A DNA stretch of 64,000 bases from an uncultured Roseovarius sp. GTDB taxonomy: Bacteria; Pseudomonadota; Alphaproteobacteria; Rhodobacterales; Rhodobacteraceae. Positions within the stretch are counted from its first letter, which is position 1; each line of letters opens with the position of its first letter. Below, piece by piece: positions 51,680-64,000 of this stretch. The notes beneath the pieces were generated by a model that was not told the origin of the DNA, did not search any database, and saw nothing but the letters and a program-made list of their open reading frames with translations. Both the position numbers and the translations under genes were made by a program. The stretch spans positions 1,178,001 through 1,242,000 of the forward strand of contig CANMOU010000001.1 of assembly GCA_947499555.1 (NCBI GenBank). Reading direction: 5' to 3'.

Positions 51680-53788
51680 TTATGACGCGGCTTCCACCAG
51701 CTGCGAGACCAACGCTTTCATTGTCAGGATACCGTATCCATGGGTGGTGGAATAATCTGCCCCCAGCCCTTCGACAATGGCGGTACGAATGGCCGGGCCA
51801 TCAACCGGAAGATGGTTCTTGTTGCGGGCCTCGATCATGCGCGCGACAAGGCCAATGGCCTGCGCGGTCGCGGCTGAGGTGCCACCAAATCCGAAATTTG
51901 CCCCCTGATGTGACGCCAGGCTTGCCGGATTTTCGGCATAGCCCCCCTGCCCCAGAATATCGGGCGCCGGAACATAGTTGAATTTCTTCCCGGCATCCGG
52001 ATCGGGCTTGGCCGCCGGATTCTCATCACGGTCACTGGGGCAAAGCGCACAAAGTCCCGGCCCCGACTGGCTGTATCTGGCCGGAACAAGTTCGGATCCC
52101 TTATCCTCTGGCGAGGACAGTTTGGCGGACCCTACAACGATGATGCCTGTGCCCAGAAATGGATCCTCGGCGTTCATCGACAATGAATCCATCGCCCGCT
52201 CCAGATCTTCCGTTGCACCGGGCGCACCCAGTTCCACAAGCATCTCCGCAACCCAAGCGCGGCCCTGCGCATCCCTCAACGTCGCCGCAACAGCGGCAAA
52301 ATCTTCCGGTGCGCCGGGATAGGAAATCTTGCTGCTGCCATCGTTGCCCGACGGGATCAGTACCGGCACTTTCAGCCCGGCGACAAGAATGGCCAAGGCC
52401 AAAGGATCACAGGGCTTTTTCGCAAAACCCGCGTTGTCAATGTTTTTCCCCCAGTCTTGGGGATAAGATTTGGCATCAGGGCGCACAAAGGGCGGGCCGA
52501 ACAGAATCGCATTCACGTTGGCCTGCCCGTAGGCCATCTTCAGGATTGCTTGACCAACCATCATCCGGTTTTCGTGCGTGTCAGAGACTAGGTTTGTCAC
52601 CCGGGCTGGCAAAAGCTTTGCCTCTGGCGCGGTGCCCCAGATTTCACAAAGCCCCTTCTTATGCGTACCGGCAATCAGTCCACCCATTGCGGTGCCATGC
52701 CCGCCCCCTTTTGAGGCAAACGCCATCCGCCCATCATGATACTCCGCATAATCCGCGTTAATGACAGAATTGGACGCTTTCCAGATCGCCGGATCGGTTG
52801 TCTGGGCCAGTTCCGCGTCGATGGCATGATCCTTGTCGCGCGAAAAAGTTGGATGCGTGACATCGACCGGCCCATCGACCAGCCCAACAATCACGCCAGC
52901 GCCGCCCTTGTCGACGGGCATATCGCCTGACCCGATTCCCATCAGCGGCAAGGTCCACTGATCAATCGCCGTTGGTTCTTTCGGCTTCGGAATGCGCTCT
53001 TCGGTCGGATTGTAGCCAAGATAGGGAGACGGACCAGGGTCATAGCTCTGCACATCGGCAATGGCTTCGACAAAAAGCTCGTCCAGGATGTCGCGCAACT
53101 GCGTAAAGGCCGCCTGTGCGATATCCGCCCCTGCCGCCCCGTCCGAGGCATAGTGAACCCCGGCCCACTCACGGTTCTCGCGGATGCGGTAGGCCACGTC
53201 GAACGCTTCGGCCACGATACCCGGATCATATGCAAAGATTTCGGCGATGCCATGTGCCAGCAACGCCGACTGCGTGGCGTGACCGCTTGGATACGCGGCG
53301 TGATGCGGCACGGTGATGGTCGGGTCGATCCCGTGATCCACAACATGCGGCCGCGGACGATTGAATTTTTCCTTGTAACGCGAGGCCAGCGCAAGACCGG
53401 CATTCTGAAGCTGCGTCAAAAGCCGCACAACACTTCCCGGCACACCTGCCGCATCATCAAATATCGACAGGAAAGGAGAGATGATATCGTCAATCTCGTC
53501 AAGAATTTCCTGCTGGCGTTCCGCGCGTTCCGGGTCGGCCTGTTTGGCCAGAAGATCATCAAGCTCGCGCCGTTCGGTTTCATCGTTGAAAGCCGGGGCA
53601 CCGGGGACATCATTTGCGTCCAGAAGCGCCACGATCTCGTCAAAACGGGCATAAATCCTGCGCCGGTACTTTTCGTCCCGCACACCCCAGGCGCCCGACA
53701 AAATTACAGAGGACTTTGTTTTTGTCTTCGTCTTCGTTTTTGTCTTGGTTTTGGTCTTGGTTTTTGTCTTGGTTTTTGTCTTGGTCAT
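51680..53788 (-). CDS. PAP2/haloperoxidase-like domain fused to S8 subtilisin protease
   Basis: A 702-residue two-domain protein. Residues 2-25 are twelve Thr-Lys repeats. Residues about 60-245 form a PAP2/vanadium-haloperoxidase fold with a full motif set: K139..RPRP (Lys, x6, Arg-Pro), YPSGHA (167-170) and R206..H212..D216 (REWAGVHYASD). Residues about 295-700 are a subtilisin domain with Asp305 (GLVDGPVDVTHP), His364 (GGGHGTAMGG), Asn482 (PSGNDG) and Ser638 (GGTSAATAQA). No signal peptide. The start is ATG 53788, with AAGGA 7 nt upstream. Third gene after the unknown protein and the SARP-like regulator. The substrate of either domain is unknown. Confidence 0.87.
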   Translation of the reverse strand: MTKTKTKTKTKTKTKTKTKTKTKTKSSVILSGAWGVRDEKYRRRIYARFDEIVALLDANDVPGAPAFNDETERRELDDLLAKQADPERAERQQEILDEIDDIISPFLSIFDDAAGVPGSVVRLLTQLQNAGLALASRYKEKFNRPRPHVVDHGIDPTITVPHHAAYPSGHATQSALLAHGIAEIFAYDPGIVAEAFDVAYRIRENREWAGVHYASDGAAGADIAQAAFTQLRDILDELFVEAIADVQSYDPGPSPYLGYNPTEERIPKPKEPTAIDQWTLPLMGIGSGDMPVDKGGAGVIVGLVDGPVDVTHPTFSRDKDHAIDAELAQTTDPAIWKASNSVINADYAEYHDGRMAFASKGGGHGTAMGGLIAGTHKKGLCEIWGTAPEAKLLPARVTNLVSDTHENRMMVGQAILKMAYGQANVNAILFGPPFVRPDAKSYPQDWGKNIDNAGFAKKPCDPLALAILVAGLKVPVLIPSGNDGSSKISYPGAPEDFAAVAATLRDAQGRAWVAEMLVELGAPGATEDLERAMDSLSMNAEDPFLGTGIIVVGSAKLSSPEDKGSELVPARYSQSGPGLCALCPSDRDENPAAKPDPDAGKKFNYVPAPDILGQGGYAENPASLASHQGANFGFGGTSAATAQAIGLVARMIEARNKNHLPVDGPAIRTAIVEGLGADYSTTHGYGILTMKALVSQLVEAAS
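53714..53785 (-). repeat. Hexamer tract encoding (Thr-Lys)12
   Basis: Twelve imperfect copies of ACNAAR, on the minus strand, encode the alternating Thr-Lys tail of the fusion protein. Codons vary (ACC, ACA, ACG; AAG, AAA), so the repeat is held at the protein level. A change of whole units keeps the frame and would alter the tail length only. Confidence 0.9.
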
Positions 53789-53860
53789 TTCAAAGTCCTT
53801 CCACGTCCCGCGCGCACCCTGCGCAATCACCCACTCACAAAACTCTCAAATCTCCGGCGC

Positions 53861-55672
53861 TCAGGCCGGTTTGCAATCCAATAACTCAAGTTTCCGCAAC
53901 CCGTCGGTAATCACACTCACACTCAAGGCCGACGGCAGCACATAGGCTGGTGACAGCATCTCGTCGGTGCCATAGGCCGGGTCAAGCGCGCGCAGGCGAC
54001 TATACATGCCCAGCGCTTTTTCATTCTGACCCTTATGCGAATAGCTGGCCACAAGATGGCGCATCACAGGCAGGAAATCCGGTCGTTTGGCCAGAACTTG
54101 TTCGCCGATCAAGATGGCATCTTCATGACGCCCCTCCAGCGTTGAAACAATTGCCGCAGACGCATCGTAATAGAACCGGTAGGGGCTATACCGACCCAGG
54201 CGTCGGGCGATGTTTGCCGCTTCGCGGGCCGTTCCGAGATCGCCGGAGTAAATCGCGTTCATGGCCGTCGCATCCCACCCGAAGGCAAGGTTAGGCAGCG
54301 ACCTCCGGCTTTCGGCCAGCAGGCGGCGGCCTTCCCCCAATTCACGGCGCACGAACCCTGCCACATGCCCGGCAATCGCCAGAACGACGGCGTTCGACGG
54401 CTCCGCTTCCAGCGCGCGGGTCAAATGCACCATGGAGTCTTTCACCGCATCCTCGCAGGGATCGTGTCGCTCACCCAAAAGAAGCGTATTCGCAAAGGCG
54501 CGCCAGGCCTGGGCATTGGCAGAAAAGACTTCGCCTTCAAACTGGCTGAGCATATCGCGAGAATCGACGATCCCGTCGCGGGACAAGGCAAACAGCTGAT
54601 GCACAGCGGCATAAAGCGTGGGCCGTGACGCCCGCCCCGCCTGCCGCATCACAACAGCTTCAATGGAATCGGCGGCACCGGCCACGAATTCGTCGAGGGT
54701 CTGGGACGAGATCGAAATGGCCGTTTCCCAATCCGTTCCGATGGAAGAGGTCCAGACAACCTTGCCCGTCGCAGGCACACGCGCCAGAATCGTGATCTGC
54801 AGCTCTCGCGCAATCAGCGACAACCGTGTTTCCACCAGAACCGGCGGACATAGAACGCTTTCCGTTTCGCGCCCGGCAAGCTGATTGCTCTCCATGTCGC
54901 GCAAATCGTAGGTCTCAAGATAGCCATTATGCCGGAACGTCGTGGCAATCGCGTTTGTGATACGCTCGGCCACGACCTCGGCGAGATTGTCATCCGCGAT
55001 CACCACCGGGTTGCCGATCAAGACACAAGGGCGCGTCTCGAACGTGACCGGCGCGACGGGGCGCGCGACAGCGCCTGTATCCACCATCGCACCCCGATCA
55101 TCCTCGATACGGGCGTCAAAGGCTTGCCGCTCTTCACGCAGCCAGTCTTCGCCCCCTTCGTCAAGGCGCGGCGCGTCTTCGAAAAAGACCGCGCGATTGT
55201 CGCAACCGGGATCAAGCTGAACGTCCAGCCCCGAAAGCCAGACATGCTCGTAATCGGCCTGAACCGTATCGCTCCACGGCCCAAGCAGCTTGCGCAGTGC
55301 GTGCAATGACTGTCGCAGTGAATTGCTCGCCTGATCTTCGAAGGACCGGCCCCAAAGTCGTGCTTTCAACCATTCGCGTGACCGCCGGCGATCTCGCGCC
55401 GTTGCCAGCATGGCCAGAAGCACCCGGCCCTTCTTCTCTGAAATCCGAATTTCGCGCCCGTCGGGATCACACAGCTGAAAGTTCCCGACAAGCGACAAGG
55501 TCAGCCGGTCTTGCTCTTTCGCTTTGAAGCTCCCCATGGGCGCATCCCCACCAAATCCGTCGCTTCCGTCAACCCCGACAAGGGTTTCCGCTTCGAGACT
55601 ACGCACAGCGGCTTGCCTATGGCAACCGCTATCCCAGCTTTGCGGCTGTCTCGTTTGCTGCAGGATTGTCAT
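53861..55672 (-). CDS. SARP-like transcriptional activator with TPR-like repeats
   Basis: A 603-residue regulator. After a 55-residue N-terminal stretch comes an OmpR-type winged helix (about 58-135: LSLVGNFQLCDPDGREIRIS, LKARLWGRSFEDQASNSLRQ and LHALRKLLG), as in SARP/BTAD activators. A middle domain (about 215-360) resembles the TolB-like module of adenylate-cyclase-type regulators. The C-terminal part (about 375-595) is helical and TPR-like. The ATG at 55672 has GGAGG 8 nt upstream and overlaps the stop of the 177-residue gene. It probably activates this operon and/or the haloperoxidase gene. Confidence 0.78.
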   Translation of the reverse strand: MTILQQTRQPQSWDSGCHRQAAVRSLEAETLVGVDGSDGFGGDAPMGSFKAKEQDRLTLSLVGNFQLCDPDGREIRISEKKGRVLLAMLATARDRRRSREWLKARLWGRSFEDQASNSLRQSLHALRKLLGPWSDTVQADYEHVWLSGLDVQLDPGCDNRAVFFEDAPRLDEGGEDWLREERQAFDARIEDDRGAMVDTGAVARPVAPVTFETRPCVLIGNPVVIADDNLAEVVAERITNAIATTFRHNGYLETYDLRDMESNQLAGRETESVLCPPVLVETRLSLIARELQITILARVPATGKVVWTSSIGTDWETAISISSQTLDEFVAGAADSIEAVVMRQAGRASRPTLYAAVHQLFALSRDGIVDSRDMLSQFEGEVFSANAQAWRAFANTLLLGERHDPCEDAVKDSMVHLTRALEAEPSNAVVLAIAGHVAGFVRRELGEGRRLLAESRRSLPNLAFGWDATAMNAIYSGDLGTAREAANIARRLGRYSPYRFYYDASAAIVSTLEGRHEDAILIGEQVLAKRPDFLPVMRHLVASYSHKGQNEKALGMYSRLRALDPAYGTDEMLSPAYVLPSALSVSVITDGLRKLELLDCKPA

Positions 55673-56202
55673 GAAACATGACCTCCGAATTGATCAGGCG
55701 ATCGACGAAAATCATTGGGCAAAAGTTCATCTTTCCAAGGCAGGTAATCGGCCTTGAAATGGATTGTCGCCCCGGGTTCGTTTTCACCAAGTAAAAGACA
55801 TCGCGAAGCCGCCGCCTTGGTTCGGGGGCCAGGCTTAAACCGCGCGGCCCCCTTCAGACGCACACCCTCGTCTGAACTTTCCAAGGCGAAATACCCATCG
55901 CCACCAATAAACGTACCCTTTGGCTCGTATCCATCAGGAACCACCTGCTCCACGATGAAAATTTCCAGACCATCTGGTCCCTGCGAGATGAGCGTTGCGC
56001 ACATTTCAAGGTCGGGAGAAAGCCCTTGCGGAGCTTCACTCTCAAGCCCCGTGCACGCGCCGGCATTGGAGACGCTTAAAAATGTATTTTCCCCCCCAGA
56101 TCTTGATACAATCAGATACTCGCTACGCTCACTTATGATCGTTTGGGGATGCAAAAAGCTTGCCACGGCACGCCGGTTTTGCATGGCAATACAAAAAGTC
56201 AC
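55669..56202 (-). CDS. Unknown 177-residue protein, first gene of the protease operon
   Basis: Predicted start GTG 56202, 9 nt after GGAGGA; a longer frame without a ribosome site begins at 56274. No signal peptide and no recognised domain. It has a beta-rich look: FLHPQTIISERSEYLIVSRS, then EIFIVEQVVPDGYEPKG and GYFALESSDEGVRLKGAARF. The FIGGDGYFAL segment could be a small sandwich fold. Its stop overlaps the regulator start (ATGA), so it is coupled to it. Confidence 0.65.
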   Translation of the reverse strand: MTFCIAMQNRRAVASFLHPQTIISERSEYLIVSRSGGENTFLSVSNAGACTGLESEAPQGLSPDLEMCATLISQGPDGLEIFIVEQVVPDGYEPKGTFIGGDGYFALESSDEGVRLKGAARFKPGPRTKAAASRCLLLGENEPGATIHFKADYLPWKDELLPNDFRRSPDQFGGHVS

Positions 56203-56252
56203 TCTTAAAAATCCTCCTCTCTCACCTCGCAGGGTAGCTCCAGAATGCACCC

Positions 56253-56294
56253 AGTATGTAAGCGAGGCGTTCAAGGCCGCGTTAAAGAAGCGTT
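56253..56294 (-). promoter_or_regulatory. Candidate SARP operator and promoter of the protease operon
   Basis: On the minus strand, AACGC occurs three times (plus-strand GCGTT at 56290-56294, 56279-56283 and 56267-56271), spaced 11 and 12 bp. The last box ends 8 bp before CATACT (56253-56258), a -10-like hexamer about 50 bp upstream of the GTG start. SARP activators bind such direct repeats one helical turn apart, 8 bp from the -10. Assignment to the adjacent regulator is inference. Confidence 0.5.
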
Positions 56295-56328: not shown

Positions 56329-56510
56329 CAAAACTTTACATCTCGTTGCGAGGATGATTCACCGAAAAACGCCTGAAATTTTTTACGCATTTTTGCGTGC
56401 TGTCCCCCGGTTTACCTAACGGCAGCCTGACGGGGCTCGCGCAGTCTGACGTCGTGGGTGGCTGAAACCACGCGTTCATACGCGTCATTTAAGAGGTGGA
56501 GGTATATTTT

Positions 56511-58589
56511 ATGAAGTTACCATTTTCAGAACCGTTTCTGGCTGGCTCGGGCCGCGCCCGTAAAGCCAAAGAGTTGCGTGATCTTGCAACCGAAGTCTCG
56601 CGTCTTGCGCCACAGGCGCTCACGCGGACAAATCAGGAAGAAGTTGATCACGCGCCGAAATACCCCGCGAATTTCACCAAGGGTCTGGCGCATGATGAAT
56701 ATGGCGTCCTTGACGAGCAGAATGACTATGCCTGTCTTGTGGAGGCAATCAACTCGCCCAATCCAGGCGATTTTGACAAACGTATCGTGCGCTTTTTCGA
56801 TGAGTTTGATTGCCAGCCTCTGGATCGCAACCACAAACCGCTAAAGGATAAACAGGGCAAGCCTGTCAAGACCGGATGGCGCGGGTGGGAAAGCCCAAGA
56901 GCCGGACATGTGTTCGAGCTTCAGGGCCCTGATGCCGGCGCCGTCGGCATGGCCCCTGCCCCTCGGGTGAGCACACACGAACTGGCGGCAGAAATGGCCG
57001 AGGTTTATGGCCTTGCGCTTTTGCGGGACGTGCCATTCACCGAGATCTGCGAGGGCAATGGCGACCGGCTGTGTGGTGATGATGCAAAACCGGCGAAGTT
57101 GAATGCCGATGAGGTTGCATCCCTGATCGCAGGCATGGAGTTCTTCTCGGCCTCCGACGACAGCATGGATCAGTTTTCGCGCAACCGGCGAGATGCCCGG
57201 CTCATTGGCGGGCCCATCACGGCGGAAACGGCCTTTCGCGGCTCAACAGTGGGCGCGATGGACGGGCCGTATATTTCGCAGTTCATGCTGATCGGATCGG
57301 ATTCCCGCGCAGGCGGCAATCCCGGCGCTGGCGTCTCGAATTTCCCCGACCTCAACGCAGGCTGGGATTTCCGCGACGGCTTCATTCAATATGGCACGCA
57401 AGCCATTGATCAAAGGGGGCAAACCGCCAAGCCCTGTCTGGATTACATGACAGACTGGCCGGCGTGGCGAGATGTCCAGAACGGCGCGAATTTCGGCGGG
57501 CTCGACGTCTATGAGCCTCAGCGCCGGTTCATAACCACGCCGCGGGATTTGGCCACTTATGTGCATTTCGATCAGCTCTATCAGGCCTATTTGAATGCGG
57601 CTTTGCTGTTGTTGTCGATGAATGCGCCGCGATCCAAGGGCTTTCCCGAGCCGTCGTTTTCGGGTCACCGCACAGATTTCGCAACTTTTGGCGGGCCACA
57701 CATCCTGTCCTTGGTTTGCGAGATCGCCACACGGTGCCTCAAGGCCGTCCGGCGGCAGAAGTTCAACTATCATCGCCGGGCACGTCCCGAGGCGATGGGC
57801 GGACGGCTTACGCTGGCTTGTGCGGATCACCTCGACAAGCTGGGTTGTGCAGGTCCGGGCTTCGCAGAGATGCTGGATCAAATTCCCGATGATCTTCTGC
57901 ATGCCGTGATCCATCACAACAAGGATCAAAACAGCACCGCGATGAAAAAGATGCGCCGCCTGGCCTGCAAGCACAAAGGGGCCGGCCTGCCCAAGGGGAT
58001 CGACGAGCATTGCAACCTGCTCTTGCCGATGGCCTTCCCTGAAGGCAGCCCCATGCACCCTGCCTATGGCGCAGGCCACGCAACGGTGGCTGGCGGGTGC
58101 GTGACCGTGCTCAAGGCCTTCTTCGAGATGTTTGAAGACTGTGACAGCAAGGTCGAGCGCAAGCTGACATTCTGTGACGACCACGGTCGGGAAAAGCCGA
58201 TCCGCTACGTGCCAAATGGCGACGGGTCATGCCTAATCCAGGACCCCAAGTCGCAGAATGCGCTGACAGTGCAAGGTGAGTTGGACAAGCTCGCCGCCAA
58301 TATCTCGATCGGGCGAAATATGGCCGGTGTGCATTACTACTCGGACTATTACGACAGTCTGCGCATGGGCGAACGGGTCGCTGTGGGTCTCTTGATGGAG
58401 CAGAGCCCAACATATGTCGAACCTGTCGATATGTCCTTCACCAGCTTCGATGGCGATCACATTCGGATTTCCGGCGCTGCCGGGTCCGCGCCATCCATTT
58501 CCATCCTCGACCAGTCTGGCAGTCCTGTACAGCTGGCTGACTGGTGCCTTCGCCATGTGAGTGGGGCGGAGGCCATGGAGGATCTGTAG
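56511..58589 (+). CDS. Vanadium-dependent haloperoxidase homologue
   Basis: A 692-residue protein of the algal/bacterial vanadium bromoperoxidase type, which oxidises halides with H2O2. Vanadate-binding residues align with the Corallina enzyme: Lys417 and Arg425 (KFNYHRRARPEAMGG), HPAYGAGHATVAGG with Gly522-His523, and Arg602/His608 (GRNMAGVHYYSDYYD). The serine normally before Gly-His is Ala521. No signal peptide is seen. The start is ATG 56511, 8 nt after GGAGG. It faces away from the SARP/protease operon and ends at a strong terminator. Confidence 0.87.
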   Translation: MKLPFSEPFLAGSGRARKAKELRDLATEVSRLAPQALTRTNQEEVDHAPKYPANFTKGLAHDEYGVLDEQNDYACLVEAINSPNPGDFDKRIVRFFDEFDCQPLDRNHKPLKDKQGKPVKTGWRGWESPRAGHVFELQGPDAGAVGMAPAPRVSTHELAAEMAEVYGLALLRDVPFTEICEGNGDRLCGDDAKPAKLNADEVASLIAGMEFFSASDDSMDQFSRNRRDARLIGGPITAETAFRGSTVGAMDGPYISQFMLIGSDSRAGGNPGAGVSNFPDLNAGWDFRDGFIQYGTQAIDQRGQTAKPCLDYMTDWPAWRDVQNGANFGGLDVYEPQRRFITTPRDLATYVHFDQLYQAYLNAALLLLSMNAPRSKGFPEPSFSGHRTDFATFGGPHILSLVCEIATRCLKAVRRQKFNYHRRARPEAMGGRLTLACADHLDKLGCAGPGFAEMLDQIPDDLLHAVIHHNKDQNSTAMKKMRRLACKHKGAGLPKGIDEHCNLLLPMAFPEGSPMHPAYGAGHATVAGGCVTVLKAFFEMFEDCDSKVERKLTFCDDHGREKPIRYVPNGDGSCLIQDPKSQNALTVQGELDKLAANISIGRNMAGVHYYSDYYDSLRMGERVAVGLLMEQSPTYVEPVDMSFTSFDGDHIRISGAAGSAPSISILDQSGSPVQLADWCLRHVSGAEAMEDL

Positions 58590-58688: not shown

Positions 58689-60092
58689 CTACTCCGCCGC
58701 TTGCGCGTCTGCGCCCTCAGTCTTCGCCAAAGGCAGGTCAACGAAGAAGATCGTGCCTTCTCCCTTGACACTCTCATAGTAGAGGGCACCTTTGAAATGC
58801 TCGACCATTTCACGAGAGATGTTCATGCCAAGGCCCGTGCCGCCCACCTGGCGTCGGTCAGAGGAATCTAGCTGACTGAAACGGCCAAAAACCTTGTCTT
58901 CTGATCCTTCGGGGATACCAGCGCCGGTGTCGCGCACAAAGATCGACACCCGGTCTTCCATCTTCTTGCACCCGATCGCAACGCTGTCGCCCTTGTGTGA
59001 GAATTTCACAGCGTTCGAAATCACATTCGACAGCACCTGCATCAGACGCATTTCATCGGCTTCAACAAAGAGCCAGGGTTTCTCGTCCATTTCCGGCACA
59101 AGTGTCACCTCATGCCCATTTGCAAAACCAGTGTTTCCCTCAATCGCATCAAGAAGCAGGCCCTGCACATTCAGCATTTCCATCTGATAGCTCATTTCGC
59201 CTGCTTCAAGCTTCTGCAGGTCAAGAACATCATCAATCAGGCTGCGCAAGCGATCACTGTTTTTGCCCGCGGTCTCCAAGACCTGTTTCATGCTGTCTGG
59301 AATTGGGCCCAAAGCGCCTGTGTTCAACAAATCAAGTGAGACCTTGATTGACGTCAGCGGCGTGCGCAATTCGTGGCTTACGGTCGAGACAAATTGCGAT
59401 TTGACCTGGTAGGCCGCCTTGGTGCGTTCATGCTCCTTTCGAAGCGTTTCAAGATGCGCGAGGTTCTTCCGGTAAAGCTTCAGGAACACAACCGAGCAGT
59501 CGATCAGGAAGTACATCACGAAAATGACCGTGAAGAATTGCAGCCAAAGATCTGATGTCAGCGGCGGACGCTCAACCCAAAGGTCGCGCACCACGATGAT
59601 GACAAACGAGATCCCGTACAGGGCCAGGCGAATGGCCAGTGCCCAGACAAGTTGGTGGTTGTTCATTGCTGCAAAGAGAGCCGCAGCAAAGAGGAAGAAG
59701 AGCGGCGTAAAATGCCCGCCCGTTTCCTGACTGAATGCCACCGTTATGGCATAGATACAGATCGCCAGTGAACTCAGAACCGTGTTCACCAGAATCCAAA
59801 ACAGACTGAGATTAATGGCGCTGCGTTGGTGAACCTTCAGTTCGGCAACCTTGCGCGCAAGAACGATGTCCTGCACCTCGAAAAACAGGATGAGCACGTA
59901 AAATAGGAACGCGTTCATTGGATCGAAGTAGAACGCCGTCAAAAGCGTGGCTGATAAGAAAATTGCCTGCCTTTGCCAAATTAGCGCAAAGGCCATAGCC
60001 GTATAATCTTTCAGGTTCTGAAGAAGCTGATCCTGTGGATCAATTTCTTCCGGGCTTTCCGCCGTTGCCTGTTTGACTTCAAGGAGTGCCAT
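58689..60092 (-). CDS. Membrane sensor histidine kinase
   Basis: A 467-residue kinase. Six hydrophobic helices (about residues 35-205) form the sensor without a large periplasmic loop, followed by a coiled linker (LYRKNLAHLETLRKEHERTK). The HisKA phospho-acceptor is in STVSHELRTPLTSIKVSLDL (His about 241), and the HATPase_c domain has N, G1 and G2 boxes (SNVISNAVKFSHKG, RDTGAGIPEG, GGTGLGMNIS). The response regulator at 61838 is the likely partner, though a P450 gene lies between. Signal unknown. Confidence 0.92.
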   Translation of the reverse strand: MALLEVKQATAESPEEIDPQDQLLQNLKDYTAMAFALIWQRQAIFLSATLLTAFYFDPMNAFLFYVLILFFEVQDIVLARKVAELKVHQRSAINLSLFWILVNTVLSSLAICIYAITVAFSQETGGHFTPLFFLFAAALFAAMNNHQLVWALAIRLALYGISFVIIVVRDLWVERPPLTSDLWLQFFTVIFVMYFLIDCSVVFLKLYRKNLAHLETLRKEHERTKAAYQVKSQFVSTVSHELRTPLTSIKVSLDLLNTGALGPIPDSMKQVLETAGKNSDRLRSLIDDVLDLQKLEAGEMSYQMEMLNVQGLLLDAIEGNTGFANGHEVTLVPEMDEKPWLFVEADEMRLMQVLSNVISNAVKFSHKGDSVAIGCKKMEDRVSIFVRDTGAGIPEGSEDKVFGRFSQLDSSDRRQVGGTGLGMNISREMVEHFKGALYYESVKGEGTIFFVDLPLAKTEGADAQAAE

Positions 60093-60435
60093 GCCACCAC
60101 GCCTGATTGCTCTGTCTCACAGGCGTGTTTTCACAGATTTTGGCTAAGAATGGGTCCGTATTCCGGTGAGATTTGGGCAATCTTTTAATCAAACTTTACC
60201 GGATGAGCTTCACATGTGGTTCAGTAAATGGAAAAATAGATGAAGATTGGCCTTCAAGCCATTGTAAATTATACCCTTTATTCTTCAGAAATTTCGTTAA
60301 CAGGATGTCTTGCCAGAAACCCTTGATCTGATACGCTGCCCGATGGTGGGATGGTTCCCGCACGGATTTGTGCGGCCTAACGTGGTGTGGCAATGGTACA
60401 ATTCCAGCGCGCAATTTCAGCTCAAGACGCAACAG
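60093..60435. other. Intergenic region without visible gene
   Basis: 343 bp between the divergent histidine kinase and P450 genes. It is A/T-richer than its surroundings and contains an interrupted inverted repeat TCCGGT...ACCGGA (about 60161-60202) that could be part of a regulatory site. I see no convincing small gene, RNA or lux-box-like palindrome. Confidence 0.6.
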
Positions 60436-61806
60436 ATGACTGACATCGTGAAAACAGAACGCGCCCCAGGCACGGCGCAACCCGCTGTTTTGCCAATCAA
60501 GGCTCAACTTGCCGAGGCACCGGTTGGCCTGCTGAAATTCGCCAAACTGGCCGGGCGCAACATGCTTGAGGTCATCCCTATTGAGACGACCACTCAGACC
60601 TACCTCAAAGGCCCGCTGAACATTCATTACATCTGCGATCCCGAGATCATCACTGAGCTTCTCGTGGGCGAAGGGCGACGGTTCCCCAAGGCGCAGTTCA
60701 CAAAGGACATTCTCGGCTCGGCCGTTGGCAATTCCATGATGCTGTCGGAAGGCGAAAAATGGAAAGCGCAGCGTCGCCGATACTCGCCGCTTTTTGCCGC
60801 GCGCAACCTGCCCTTGCTGTCGCAGCACTTTGCCGAAACCGGCAAGGAAATTGCCGCCTCGCTCCGCGAGGGCTCGGGCCTTGTCGACGTGGCACAAATG
60901 GCGCCCGCCGCGACGCTTACCAATATCTCGCGGGTCATCTTTTCGGGCAATGAAGAGGTCAGCGCCGAACAGATCCGTGTCGGGCTGCGAAATTACTTCG
61001 AATATATTTCAGAGCTTTCGCTTTTTGACGTGATGGGCCTGCCTTCTTGGCTTCCGCGCAAGAAATGGTTCAAGAGCAAGGCCCCCGTGACCGATATGCG
61101 CGCACTTGCCCGTCAGGTCATCGAAAGCCGCCGCGCCGAGAGCCGTCCGATACCGCTGGATTTCCTTGACCTGATGATCGCAGCGCTCGAAGAGGATTTC
61201 GAGGATATCGAGACCACGGTCGACAACCTTCTGACTTTCGTTGTGGCCGGCCACGAGACATCGGCCAATGCTCTGGCATGGGGGGCGTATCTTCTGGCGC
61301 TGCATCCGGACGTCCAGAACGCCGTCCGTCAAGAGATTACCGATATCTCGCCGGATGAACCGATCACGTTTGACGATATCCAGAAGATGCCGCTTCTGCG
61401 CGCGCATACGAAAGAAACGCTTCGCCTGTATCCATCAGCCGCGTTTTTCGCCCGCGATGCCGGGGCGGATATCACCATCAAGGGCATCAAGTTTGCAAAG
61501 GGCGACGCGCTTTTCTACCCGGTCTATTCCTTGCACCGCAACGAGGTGCTCTGGGAGGATCCGGACGCCTACAAACCCGAACGTTTCATGGGGGCACCGC
61601 TGCCTCGGGGGCAATACATCCCCTTTGGCGACGGCCCACGCGTCTGTATCGGCGCACAATATGCCGAGGCGGAGATGATGGTGCTGATGGCATCGATTTT
61701 GCGCGGGGTGGCTTTTGATATTGGCGATGCGCCGATCCCACGCCCGGTTCTGACCTTCACGATGCGGGCTGGTGGGCCAATTATGCTTCGCACTCGTCCC
61801 GTCTGA
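60436..61806 (+). CDS. Cytochrome P450
   Basis: A 456-residue soluble P450 monooxygenase. The I-helix is VVAGHETSANALAW (acid-Thr pair replaced by Glu-Thr), the ExxR motif is KETLRLYPSA, PERF is present, and the haem-thiolate loop is FGDGPRVCIGAQYAEAEM with Cys in place. No fused reductase, so it needs separate ferredoxin partners. I start at ATG 60436; the frame is open upstream to 60310 but without a ribosome site. Substrate unknown. Confidence 0.93.
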   Translation: MTDIVKTERAPGTAQPAVLPIKAQLAEAPVGLLKFAKLAGRNMLEVIPIETTTQTYLKGPLNIHYICDPEIITELLVGEGRRFPKAQFTKDILGSAVGNSMMLSEGEKWKAQRRRYSPLFAARNLPLLSQHFAETGKEIAASLREGSGLVDVAQMAPAATLTNISRVIFSGNEEVSAEQIRVGLRNYFEYISELSLFDVMGLPSWLPRKKWFKSKAPVTDMRALARQVIESRRAESRPIPLDFLDLMIAALEEDFEDIETTVDNLLTFVVAGHETSANALAWGAYLLALHPDVQNAVRQEITDISPDEPITFDDIQKMPLLRAHTKETLRLYPSAAFFARDAGADITIKGIKFAKGDALFYPVYSLHRNEVLWEDPDAYKPERFMGAPLPRGQYIPFGDGPRVCIGAQYAEAEMMVLMASILRGVAFDIGDAPIPRPVLTFTMRAGGPIMLRTRPV

Positions 61807-61812
61807 AGAAAA

Positions 61813-61830
61813 CGGGCCCCGCAGGGCCCG
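61813..61830 (-). terminator. Terminator of the response regulator gene
   Basis: CGGGCCC / GGGCCCG with a 4-nt loop. On the minus strand the stem is followed by a T-rich GTTTTCTTC, consistent with Rho-independent termination of the leftward response regulator gene; it may also help end the P450 transcript. Confidence 0.75.
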
Positions 61831-61837
61831 ATATCTG

Positions 61838-62983
61838 TTACTTCATCGAGAGATAGCTCTCTTCGCCGAAGAGCTCCATAAGCACGCGTTCATACATGCG
61901 CTTGCGCGGTTCGGTGCTACCTGTCGCGGCGACCTGCGCCTCGGTCTCAACACCCGACAGAACAGAGTTCTTCTCGCGCAGTTTCTCTTCCCGCTCTTCA
62001 ACGCTCGTCACAGCTCGGGAAAGCGCCGTGCCCGCCCCTGAACGGGAAAGCGAGCGCATCGAGATCGGCTCACCGACCAGAACGTGCACCCATGCAGCCG
62101 CATGACGTTCGCGCAGCATCACGCTGACGTAGTTGTTGAGCTTCTCTTCTGTCGGGAATTGGGCCGATGGCATTTCTTCATGCACCACGACAACAAAAAC
62201 GCCTTCCCCACGGTAGGAGAAGATGCAGTCAATCTCGGATGTCGCACTTTGAATGCAATGGGCAGTATCGTGGACAACACGGCGGAAACAGCCACAGCTT
62301 GTGATGTCATACAGGATCGACGCATCCTGCAACTTGATGGCCACCGCGTAGGAGTTGAACAGGCGACCACGCGACAATTGCCCGACATAGTTGTCAAACT
62401 CGACATAGCGCAGGCACCGGTCCGCATCATCGACCGTCAGCGGGTCTTCAAAGTTGAACTGCTGATTGTTCTCAAGCTCCTGCTTGAGGATTTTAACAGA
62501 GCGCAGGCTCTTTTCAGTCTTCAGGCGCTCTTTGACCAGTCGGCGGGCCGAATTCATTCGCCCACGCAGGTCCAGAAGGTCAAACGGCTTGCACACATAG
62601 TCGGTCGCACCCGCCATGAAGGCATCATCGACATAGCTCCGCTCGCTCATCGCAGTGAGCATGATGATCGGGGTTTCCGAATAGTCCGGCAAAGCCCGGA
62701 TGCCGCGCAACAAGACGATACCGTCGGTATCGGGCATCTGGATATCAAGAAGCAGACAATCAAACGGCGTGGTCGCAGCCTCGAGCGCGTCAATCGCACT
62801 CTCTGCCGAGTTGGCAACCGTCACGTTGTAGTTGTCGATTGTCGTCAATGCAGTCTTCAGCAGTTCAAGAATGCTCGGGTCGTCATCCACAACCAGCACC
62901 TTGAGTTGAGGGGTCTTTTGCGCGCGGTGCTCCAGTTTTTCCTGAAAGCGATCAGCGCCATTCTTTTCGTTTTCCATCGCCAT
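61838..62983 (-). CDS. Response regulator with probable degenerate GGDEF domain
   Basis: A 381-residue protein. The receiver domain (about 27-150) has the acidic pair VVDDDPS, the phospho-Asp in LLLDIQMPDTDG, Thr in IMLTAMS and Lys in VCKPFD. A helical linker precedes a domain (about 195-310) whose order of strands and the FSYRGEGVFVVVVHEE segment recall a GGDEF domain with the signature lost (RGEGVF for GGDEF). The C-terminal part is coiled. No DNA-binding domain is visible. It may answer the nearby histidine kinase. Confidence 0.83.
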   Translation of the reverse strand: MAMENEKNGADRFQEKLEHRAQKTPQLKVLVVDDDPSILELLKTALTTIDNYNVTVANSAESAIDALEAATTPFDCLLLDIQMPDTDGIVLLRGIRALPDYSETPIIMLTAMSERSYVDDAFMAGATDYVCKPFDLLDLRGRMNSARRLVKERLKTEKSLRSVKILKQELENNQQFNFEDPLTVDDADRCLRYVEFDNYVGQLSRGRLFNSYAVAIKLQDASILYDITSCGCFRRVVHDTAHCIQSATSEIDCIFSYRGEGVFVVVVHEEMPSAQFPTEEKLNNYVSVMLRERHAAAWVHVLVGEPISMRSLSRSGAGTALSRAVTSVEEREEKLREKNSVLSGVETEAQVAATGSTEPRKRMYERVLMELFGEESYLSMK

Positions 62984-63281
62984 TAGCCATTCTTGAGAAG
63001 CCTGTGATGGTGAATTGTTAGTTAAAGACTGGGTTGAGAGTGAGGCGCAAGCGGGGTCTGTTTTCGACCAGAGCGCCTTAATTCCGCCCTGTTTCGTTTT
63101 TTTGTTTCCTCTGGGAAAACAATAGGATGTAAAATTTCAGATTGGCGTGAGAACGGCGGGTAATCCGTCACCATGTCGGCACAAAACACTCTTTTTACGT
63201 GCTTTCGCGAATCCAGCGGGTTTGTGAAATGACCTGGTCCACGGCTTCCCGGATGCCGGCACGAAAAAGTGGAAACCGATG

Positions 63282-63950
63282 CTAGTGTTCGAGGCTTTGC
63301 GTGTTGAAGAGCACCGCCTGACTTTTGGTGCCTTCGATATCGAACTTGGCCCCTATCGGAGTTGCCGAGACATCAAGCCGCCTTGCCCAACGCGCCCAGA
63401 TATAGGGCACGATACCCAGGATAAAGAGCGCGCCCTCACTCTTGGCCCCATCATTCATGGCCCGGAAGAGCATGTTCTGCACCTCCAGACGGCGTTTCGA
63501 TGGCACATCGTCACTGATAAAGAACCGCGAAGCTTCCCAGATGCCTGCCTCTATCGGAGCTTTGAAGAAAAGCACATCTGTCGGCAGGTCCTGAAGAATG
63601 CCGCGCTGCGCGTCATTCAACATATAGGTGTAGACACCGCAGTTCGACGTTGTTGGTAAAAGCCGTACGCCACCAATGATCTCACCGTATTCGTGAAGAA
63701 CAACCCACCGGCACATCGGCGTGTCGTATTGATCAAACTCCATCCCGTCGGCCTGCGGCACATGCCATTTGAGGCGGTCAATGAAAATCTTTTTGCGCGC
63801 CTGCATGTACCGCAAGAGCAGATCACCATGCATATGCATCGTCGAAAAAGACATCACCGAAGTGCGAATATTTCCCAGTCCGGCGTCGGTCGGCAATGCG
63901 GGTTTGGGGGATGCAGGCTCTGGTTTGCGCGCAACAGCCTGCTCCATCAT
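63282..63950 (-). CDS. Acyl-homoserine-lactone synthase (LuxI family), start uncertain
   Basis: An autoinducer synthase that joins SAM with an acyl-ACP. Conserved residues are RKKIFIDRLKW (Arg, Phe, Trp), DGMEFDQYD, GGVRLLPTT and GIWEASRFFIS (Glu, Ser, Arg), the invariant LuxI set. The frame is still open at the right window edge, so the start may lie beyond it; ATGs at 63950 and 63854 are candidates, the latter giving a normal LuxI N-terminus. With 63950 or earlier there is a 30-residue Pro/Ala-rich extension. No LuxR partner is in view. Confidence 0.87.
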   Translation of the reverse strand: MMEQAVARKPEPASPKPALPTDAGLGNIRTSVMSFSTMHMHGDLLLRYMQARKKIFIDRLKWHVPQADGMEFDQYDTPMCRWVVLHEYGEIIGGVRLLPTTSNCGVYTYMLNDAQRGILQDLPTDVLFFKAPIEAGIWEASRFFISDDVPSKRRLEVQNMLFRAMNDGAKSEGALFILGIVPYIWARWARRLDVSATPIGAKFDIEGTKSQAVLFNTQSLEH

Positions 63951-64000
63951 AGCAGTAGGCGAAACCGCCGGAGCAAGCTCAGGCAGGGCCTGGCGGCCAG

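Follow-up and report, generated by a model that had tools for sequence, protein, structure and literature searches.

A PAP2-subtilase fusion in an uncultured Roseovarius sp. is the fused form of a widespread trio of regulator, repeat-tailed PAP2 enzyme and protease

A 64,000-nucleotide stretch of the genome of an uncultured Roseovarius sp. (contig CANMOU010000001.1, positions 1,178,001 to 1,242,000; hereafter the window) contains an open reading frame (ORF) in which a PAP2 domain is joined to a subtilisin-like (S8) protease. Comparison with related loci showed that this ORF is the fused form of a widespread trio, here called the module, consisting of a TPR-type regulator, a PAP2 enzyme carrying an N-terminal peptide repeat, and a protease (Table 1).

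The frame is open from 51680 to 53830 on the reverse strand. Translation probably begins at position 53788, where an ATG follows GGAAGG at a distance of about 8 nt; this gives 702 aa. Pfam identified Peptidase_S8 above the cut-off (E=5.3e-16) and narrowly missed PAP2 (E=5.2e-6; 26.7 bits at a cut-off of 27.2 bits). The PAP2 superfamily motifs Kx6RP, PSGH and Rx5Hx3D are all present (K139, R146-P147, P167-S168-G169-H170, R206, H212, D216) and, the Gly excepted, invariant in an 18-row alignment; likewise, the Asp/His/Ser triad and oxyanion Asn of the S8 family (D305, H364, N482, S638) are invariant in a 16-row alignment. The AlphaFold2 model consists of two folded domains, the second with a subtilisin fold, together with a low-confidence repeat tail (residues 1-37) and linker (residues 249-277). 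Thus, the claim of a preliminary description of this DNA, that two unrelated enzyme domains with complete motif sets reside in one chain, was borne out by Pfam, alignment and model. The (TK)12 tail, absent from that description, became the most informative part of the protein.

The fusion ORF is confirmed as genuine, neither a chance frame nor an assembly join, because the same fusion recurs in G032 (76% identity, a 700-aa frame open from its ATG), in P0001-P0003 (63-66% identity) and in L078, L079 and L080. The stop that was flagged in G032 is located before the ATG; a frameshift or assembly join was ruled out. Fusions were further found in L034 and L037 and, at 28-31% identity, in P0010-P0013; a scan of genome contigs with the full fusion gave seven pattern matches and no relative. 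The preliminary description had regarded separate genes in close relatives as a sign of an artificial join. The halves are indeed neighbouring genes in more distant relatives, same-genus genomes included: eight further members of the genus encode the PAP2 half on its own, with a subtilase gene following in those checked. Yet all six non-redundant fused rows fall into a single clade (support 100) of the PAP2 tree, on which one change suffices for the fusion; this tree was built quickly, and 48 of its 143 inner branches are well supported. Separate genes in distant relatives combined with a single fused clade therefore strengthen the case rather than refute it.

For tracing the PAP2 domain we used profile A1, which at E<=1e-8 matched 142 of 394 genomes (393 genera) in a family sample; the best E-value was above 1e-20 in 18 of these, leaving 124. 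In a phylum sample 90 of 398 genomes matched, many weakly and ordinary phosphatases included. A scan of named genomes returned at least 509 relatives, and the titles of the best 80, which were kept, name Rhodobacterales, Rhizobiales, Acetobacteraceae, other Alphaproteobacteria and some Gammaproteobacteria. Profile A3, with repeats in its rows, gave 46 matches and was not used. The loci analysed were 30 from the family sample, 28 more from the phylum sample and the 80 from named genomes, plus context and plasmid loci. After merging identical cores and dropping loci with no match below 1e-15, the 159 input loci gave 138 module loci, which still hold close relatives such as Rhizobium strains, and eight acid-phosphatase outgroup loci with about 1.5 kb of flank. 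The trio also occurs on rhizobial and Palleronia plasmids, e.g., pRL12 of R. johnstonii 3841. Phage origin was considered and rejected, since a phage collection held no match for the single PAP2 protein searched and the PHROG match of the fusion was a generic protease.

A regulator profile (wHTH-TPR, winged helix-turn-helix plus TPR) matched 130 of the 138 module loci and none of the eight outgroup loci, although this profile also catches class III cyclase-TPR proteins of some loci. A protease partner was present in 128 loci, a spurious one in L128 excluded, as a fused S8 domain (6), an adjacent S8 gene (104), an A4/eqolisin protease (15) or a metzincin-like protease (3). Adjacent S8 genes initially numbered 105, 100 of them on the same strand, and L128, among the other five, proved to be an antisense artefact. 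The A4 assignment was confirmed by Pfam in the three loci tested (L117, L123, L135), and the metzincin-like call is based on HExxHxxGxxH and a weak Reprolysin_5 match in L084. Across 110 S8 rows no alternative residue occurred in any catalytic column: subgroup a (77 rows) has D in 77, H in 77, N in 71 and S in 70 and subgroup b (33 rows) has D in 28, H in 29, N in 32 and S in 11, the remainder being gaps, mostly in rows cut by the locus end or by trimming. Protease class changed at least twice on the PAP2 tree. Since the partners come from the S8, A4 and metzincin-like families, in addition to the fusion, the data argue that the constant need is proteolysis next to the PAP2 enzyme, whatever the protease family. 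In two Methylobacterium loci (L104:1442-2008 and L105:3934-4470) a cysteine-protease-like gene, C70/C39_2 by Pfam in L105, adjoins the PAP2 gene on the opposite strand and could represent a fourth protease type. A gene family of about 547 aa was also seen near the module in 11 of 91 loci, with subtilase motifs by eye in L131:1119-2759.

A perfect N-terminal peptide tandem of at least four copies and ten residues was found in 123 of 138 module loci, compared to none of the eight outgroup acid phosphatases, none of 2760 shuffled N-termini and none of 722 other genes in 91 loci (first 200 residues; the raw control count of 10/732 consisted of PAP2 genes from loci outside the table, which were removed). 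As for the 15 remaining loci, about ten have imperfect repeats by eye (e.g., LHKA/LHKS, GNSGNSGNA), L104 is truncated by a contig end, and no repeat is seen in L083, L108, L148 or L153. Counting rotations as one, and near-alike units such as AGG and AGGG apart, we identified 48 distinct units, including NR (33), KN (14), KT (5), GR (5), AGG (5) and GGGR (4) as well as singletons such as GVT, FGG, QQT and AEN. The unit label changed at least 51 times on the PAP2 tree, and copy number varies slightly, e.g., (NK)7 versus (NK)8 among Rhizobium/Neorhizobium strains. By net charge, 77 of the 123 repeats are positive, 44 neutral and two negative, and a purely basic, polyanion-binding tail was rejected as a general rule.

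At the DNA level, neighbouring copies used the same codon in a fraction of 0.330 of 2618 comparisons (122 loci), compared to 0.413 expected from local codon usage, as estimated with a simple purpose-made gene caller, and to 0.389 (standard deviation 0.007) in within-phase codon shuffles, none of 300 being as low. Identity at lags 3-7 (0.389-0.413) was close to expectation, and at lag 1 it fell below the codon-usage expectation in 88 of 122 loci. Because adjacent copies share codons less than expected or shuffled, we show that selection acting at the protein level maintains the peptide repeat with the unit free to change, and DNA repetition between neighbouring copies seems to be avoided. A few loci (L037, L030, L134, L031 and L098) lie clearly above expectation and may be recent expansions. 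Microsatellite slippage as the general origin of the repeats was ruled out by this codon scrambling.

The PAP2 half had previously been taken for a vanadate-dependent oxidative enzyme coupled to the protease. The shared vanadate/phosphate motifs, a precomputed 'VCPO_2nd' Pfam label borne by relatives and the bromoperoxidase gene adjoining the fusion all fit this idea. However, the PAP2 half is a single-domain acid-phosphatase-like fold and not a haloperoxidase architecture: it has the single-domain soluble fold of class A acid phosphatases and lacks the larger vanadium haloperoxidase architecture, which spans 410-640 residues in the solved chains listed. Moreover, VCPO_2nd was not returned in a fresh Pfam scan of four relatives of the labelled type; PF22778 gave no match in the genome that contains the window, though no control gave a signal either. 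The haloperoxidase assignment was thus not upheld, and an oxidative enzyme coupled to a protease appears very unlikely. We predict instead that the domain is an active soluble phosphatase. Among the 138 module PAP2 rows, Rx5Hx3D is kept in all and Kx6RP in 135; PSGH reads PSNH in 68, NR- and NK-type rows included. A co-expressed phosphatase and protease beside one regulator might also serve nutrient scavenging, harvesting phosphate and amino acids, but inspection of the proteins read, by eye and without a predictor, showed no secretion signal and the perfect, variable repeat would be left unexplained, making this explanation decidedly improbable.

Directly upstream of the fusion lies the regulator, with a winged helix-turn-helix (wHTH) and TPR region, for which Pfam gave Trans_reg_C at 23.8 bits (cut-off 26.2), BTAD at E=0.058 and TPR_19 at 25.3 bits (cut-off 25). 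The next gene encodes a 201-aa protein, and the loci L078, L011 and L079, which share it, are TK-type fusion loci. The divergent bromoperoxidase is close to the Acaryochloris marina enzyme (5lpc, 2.9e-122). Bromoperoxidase genes occurred in 17 of the 394 family genomes, 15 of which are among the 124 module genomes (Fisher p=1.2e-6), and six of the 17 have it 2.6-3.7 kb away from their PAP2 gene, compared to about 0.05 expected. In 91 clustered loci we found bromoperoxidase in four, a heme peroxidase family in three and a KatG-like family, named by eye, in three, among which L013 and L122 represent a single place. This linkage suggests an oxidative or antagonistic setting for the module. Next to the G032 fusion the bromoperoxidase gene (L011:3924-6052, reverse strand) is split into two overlapping frames and therefore looks broken. 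Beyond the bromoperoxidase, the window (58689-64000) holds a histidine kinase and what we take to be a cytochrome P450-like gene, a response-regulator protein and a LuxI-like synthase.

Table 1. Features of the fusion gene and its neighbours in the window.
Feature	Position	Strand	Remarks
PAP2-subtilase fusion protein, 702 aa	51680..53788	-	ATG start
N-terminal (Thr-Lys)x12 perfect peptide repeat, mixed codons	53714..53785	-	low confidence (disordered) in model
PAP2 domain, residues 38-254, class A acid phosphatase-like fold	53027..53677	-	K139, R146, H170, R206, H212
Subtilase (S8) domain, residues 272-702	51683..52975	-	D305, H364, N482, S638
wHTH (Trans_reg_C-like) + TPR regulator, 603 aa	53861..55672	-	homologues annotated 'SARP family transcriptional regulator' in Rhizobium/Sinorhizobium records
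201-aa protein of unknown function directly upstream of regulator	55669..56274	-	homologues in L078, L011, L079, weak in L091
Vanadium bromoperoxidase, divergent	56496..58589	+	linked to module in several genomes

We tentatively propose that the PAP2 enzyme is a phosphatase which the repeat tail gathers or restrains and which the partner protease switches on under an oxidant or attack-type cue. Following this proposal, the disordered, exactly periodic tail of the soluble phosphatase would be an assembly or docking element, and avidity or like-with-like association would be favoured over a fixed ligand, because the unit is free while the periodicity is strict. The protease, fused in our case, would target the tail, the linker or an inhibitor bound to the repeat, and this cut might activate or free the phosphatase once the regulator has induced the operon in response to the cue. 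More speculatively, and in our opinion rather doubtfully, the repeat may be a self-recognition or condensation code, requiring exact periodicity and leaving the letters free to change, by which each lineage would assemble only its own phosphatase-protease complex; the module would then be a new class of protease-controlled phosphatases of oxidative or competitive settings.

Several observations weigh against the module and the mechanism proposed for it. The loci are best-scoring matches found with a profile built on repeat-bearing rows, eight of the 138 have no regulator match, nine have no protease by the models used (several on short flanks), with L128 as a tenth, and the S8 gene lies on the opposite strand in four (L039, L044, L052, L061). 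Since the units range from basic (NR, TK) through neutral (GVT, GGF) to acidic (AEN), no one chemical role suits all tails. Furthermore, the 4.5-kb window of the bromoperoxidase linkage test was picked after the distances had been seen.

A phosphatase effector released by proteolysis could alternatively form part of an anti-phage or abortive-infection system, in line with the patchy spread of the module (seen at E below 1e-20 in 124 of the 394 family genomes, a sample with nearly one genome for each genus), the plasmid occurrence, the protease swapping and the fast-changing element. In contrast, PADLOC on nine proteins gave a generic subtilase match and two weak ones ('subtilase' at 1.5e-6 and 0.0034, Csm6 at 0.036, nothing further at 0.1), and the phage collection again provided no match for the one PAP2 protein searched, and we find this role unlikely.

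The repeat could also be read as a multi-copy precursor, which a PatA-like subtilase, or an A4 or metzincin-like partner, would process into peptides, either short or cyclic, while PAP2 would serve as their carrier or tailoring enzyme. In a Foldseek search of the whole model PatA gave the best matches and PatG came third, the trio in L012 has a LanC-like gene nearby, and Rhizobium and Sinorhizobium trios, in the loci read with long flanks, are followed by genes for a 'HEXXH motif-containing putative peptide modification protein' and a ThiF adenylyltransferase (L158:8547-10933, L160:7541-10269), a possible peptide-modification cluster. On the other hand, the PAP2 active-site motifs are retained in nearly all rows, identity to PatA is about 15%, a second aligner ties many other subtilases, and the neighbour clusters present in at least three of 91 loci include no peptide-modification genes; PatA was not among the 50 VIA-align matches listed. 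Hence, we consider peptide maturation quite unlikely. At L012:12351-14247, near the trio of G016, the LanC-like gene is accompanied by two small ORFs that abound in GCT/Cys-Thr motifs and may encode lanthipeptide precursors.

The interpretation given in the preliminary description was partly supported; its further idea, that the protease might act on a product or partner of the other half, is conjectural. Its statement that no described system joins these enzymes agrees with the open-licence PubMed Central (PMC) full texts searched, in which no description of fusion or trio was recognised (description elsewhere is possible), with passages of PMC12419801, PMC8407465 and PMC11103875, in which no module description was found, and with a term search of PMC6821194, which gave no occurrence. 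On the other side, a JGI record names P0010 'Subtilase family/PAP2 superfamily', showing that the architecture is not wholly unseen before. Of the 394 genomes sampled in one family, at least 124 carry PAP2 genes of the module kind, as do rhizobia with well-studied strains, and in the records read the trio is annotated piecemeal as 'phosphatase PAP2 family protein', 'S8 family serine peptidase' and 'hypothetical' or 'SARP family'. That exact periodicity is held at the protein level while the unit label has changed at least 51 times on a single tree makes the repeat an uncommon example from nature, and what a low-complexity tail needs to function is therefore directly testable by unit swaps. The swap among unrelated protease families, in turn, points to a principle of regulated proteolysis not tied to one enzyme.

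Compared to known systems, the fusion PAP2 resembles class A non-specific acid phosphatases (Pseudomonas aeruginosa 7f17, PhoN) in fold and active-site motifs but, unlike these, is fused and repeat-tailed; the eight outgroup enzymes are open frames of 247-337 aa with no repeat and no regulator or protease partner within about 1.5 kb. With vanadium haloperoxidases (VCPO, algal and cyanobacterial VBPO), a true one of which adjoins the fusion, it shares superfamily and motifs, but it differs in its one short domain and lower structural match. The regulator may combine wHTH with TPR/BTAD like SARP/AfsR-type regulators, whose name its homologues bear, though its Pfam scores are weak and a class III cyclase-TPR protein substitutes for it in L123. 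The subtilase half finds its best Foldseek matches in the cyanobactin proteases PatA and PatG, whose partner PatE bears repeats, as does the PAP2 partner here; in contrast, the subtilase is fused to or paired with PAP2, and no precursor-like gene of the PatE type was recognised beside the fusion among the window ORFs read (no dedicated search), although the repeat tail itself could be read as substrate. Finally, bacterial gasdermins are effectors freed by proteolysis and paired with proteases of several families. The module likewise combines an effector with proteases of several families, but its effector is a PAP2-type enzyme, whose defence role is putative.
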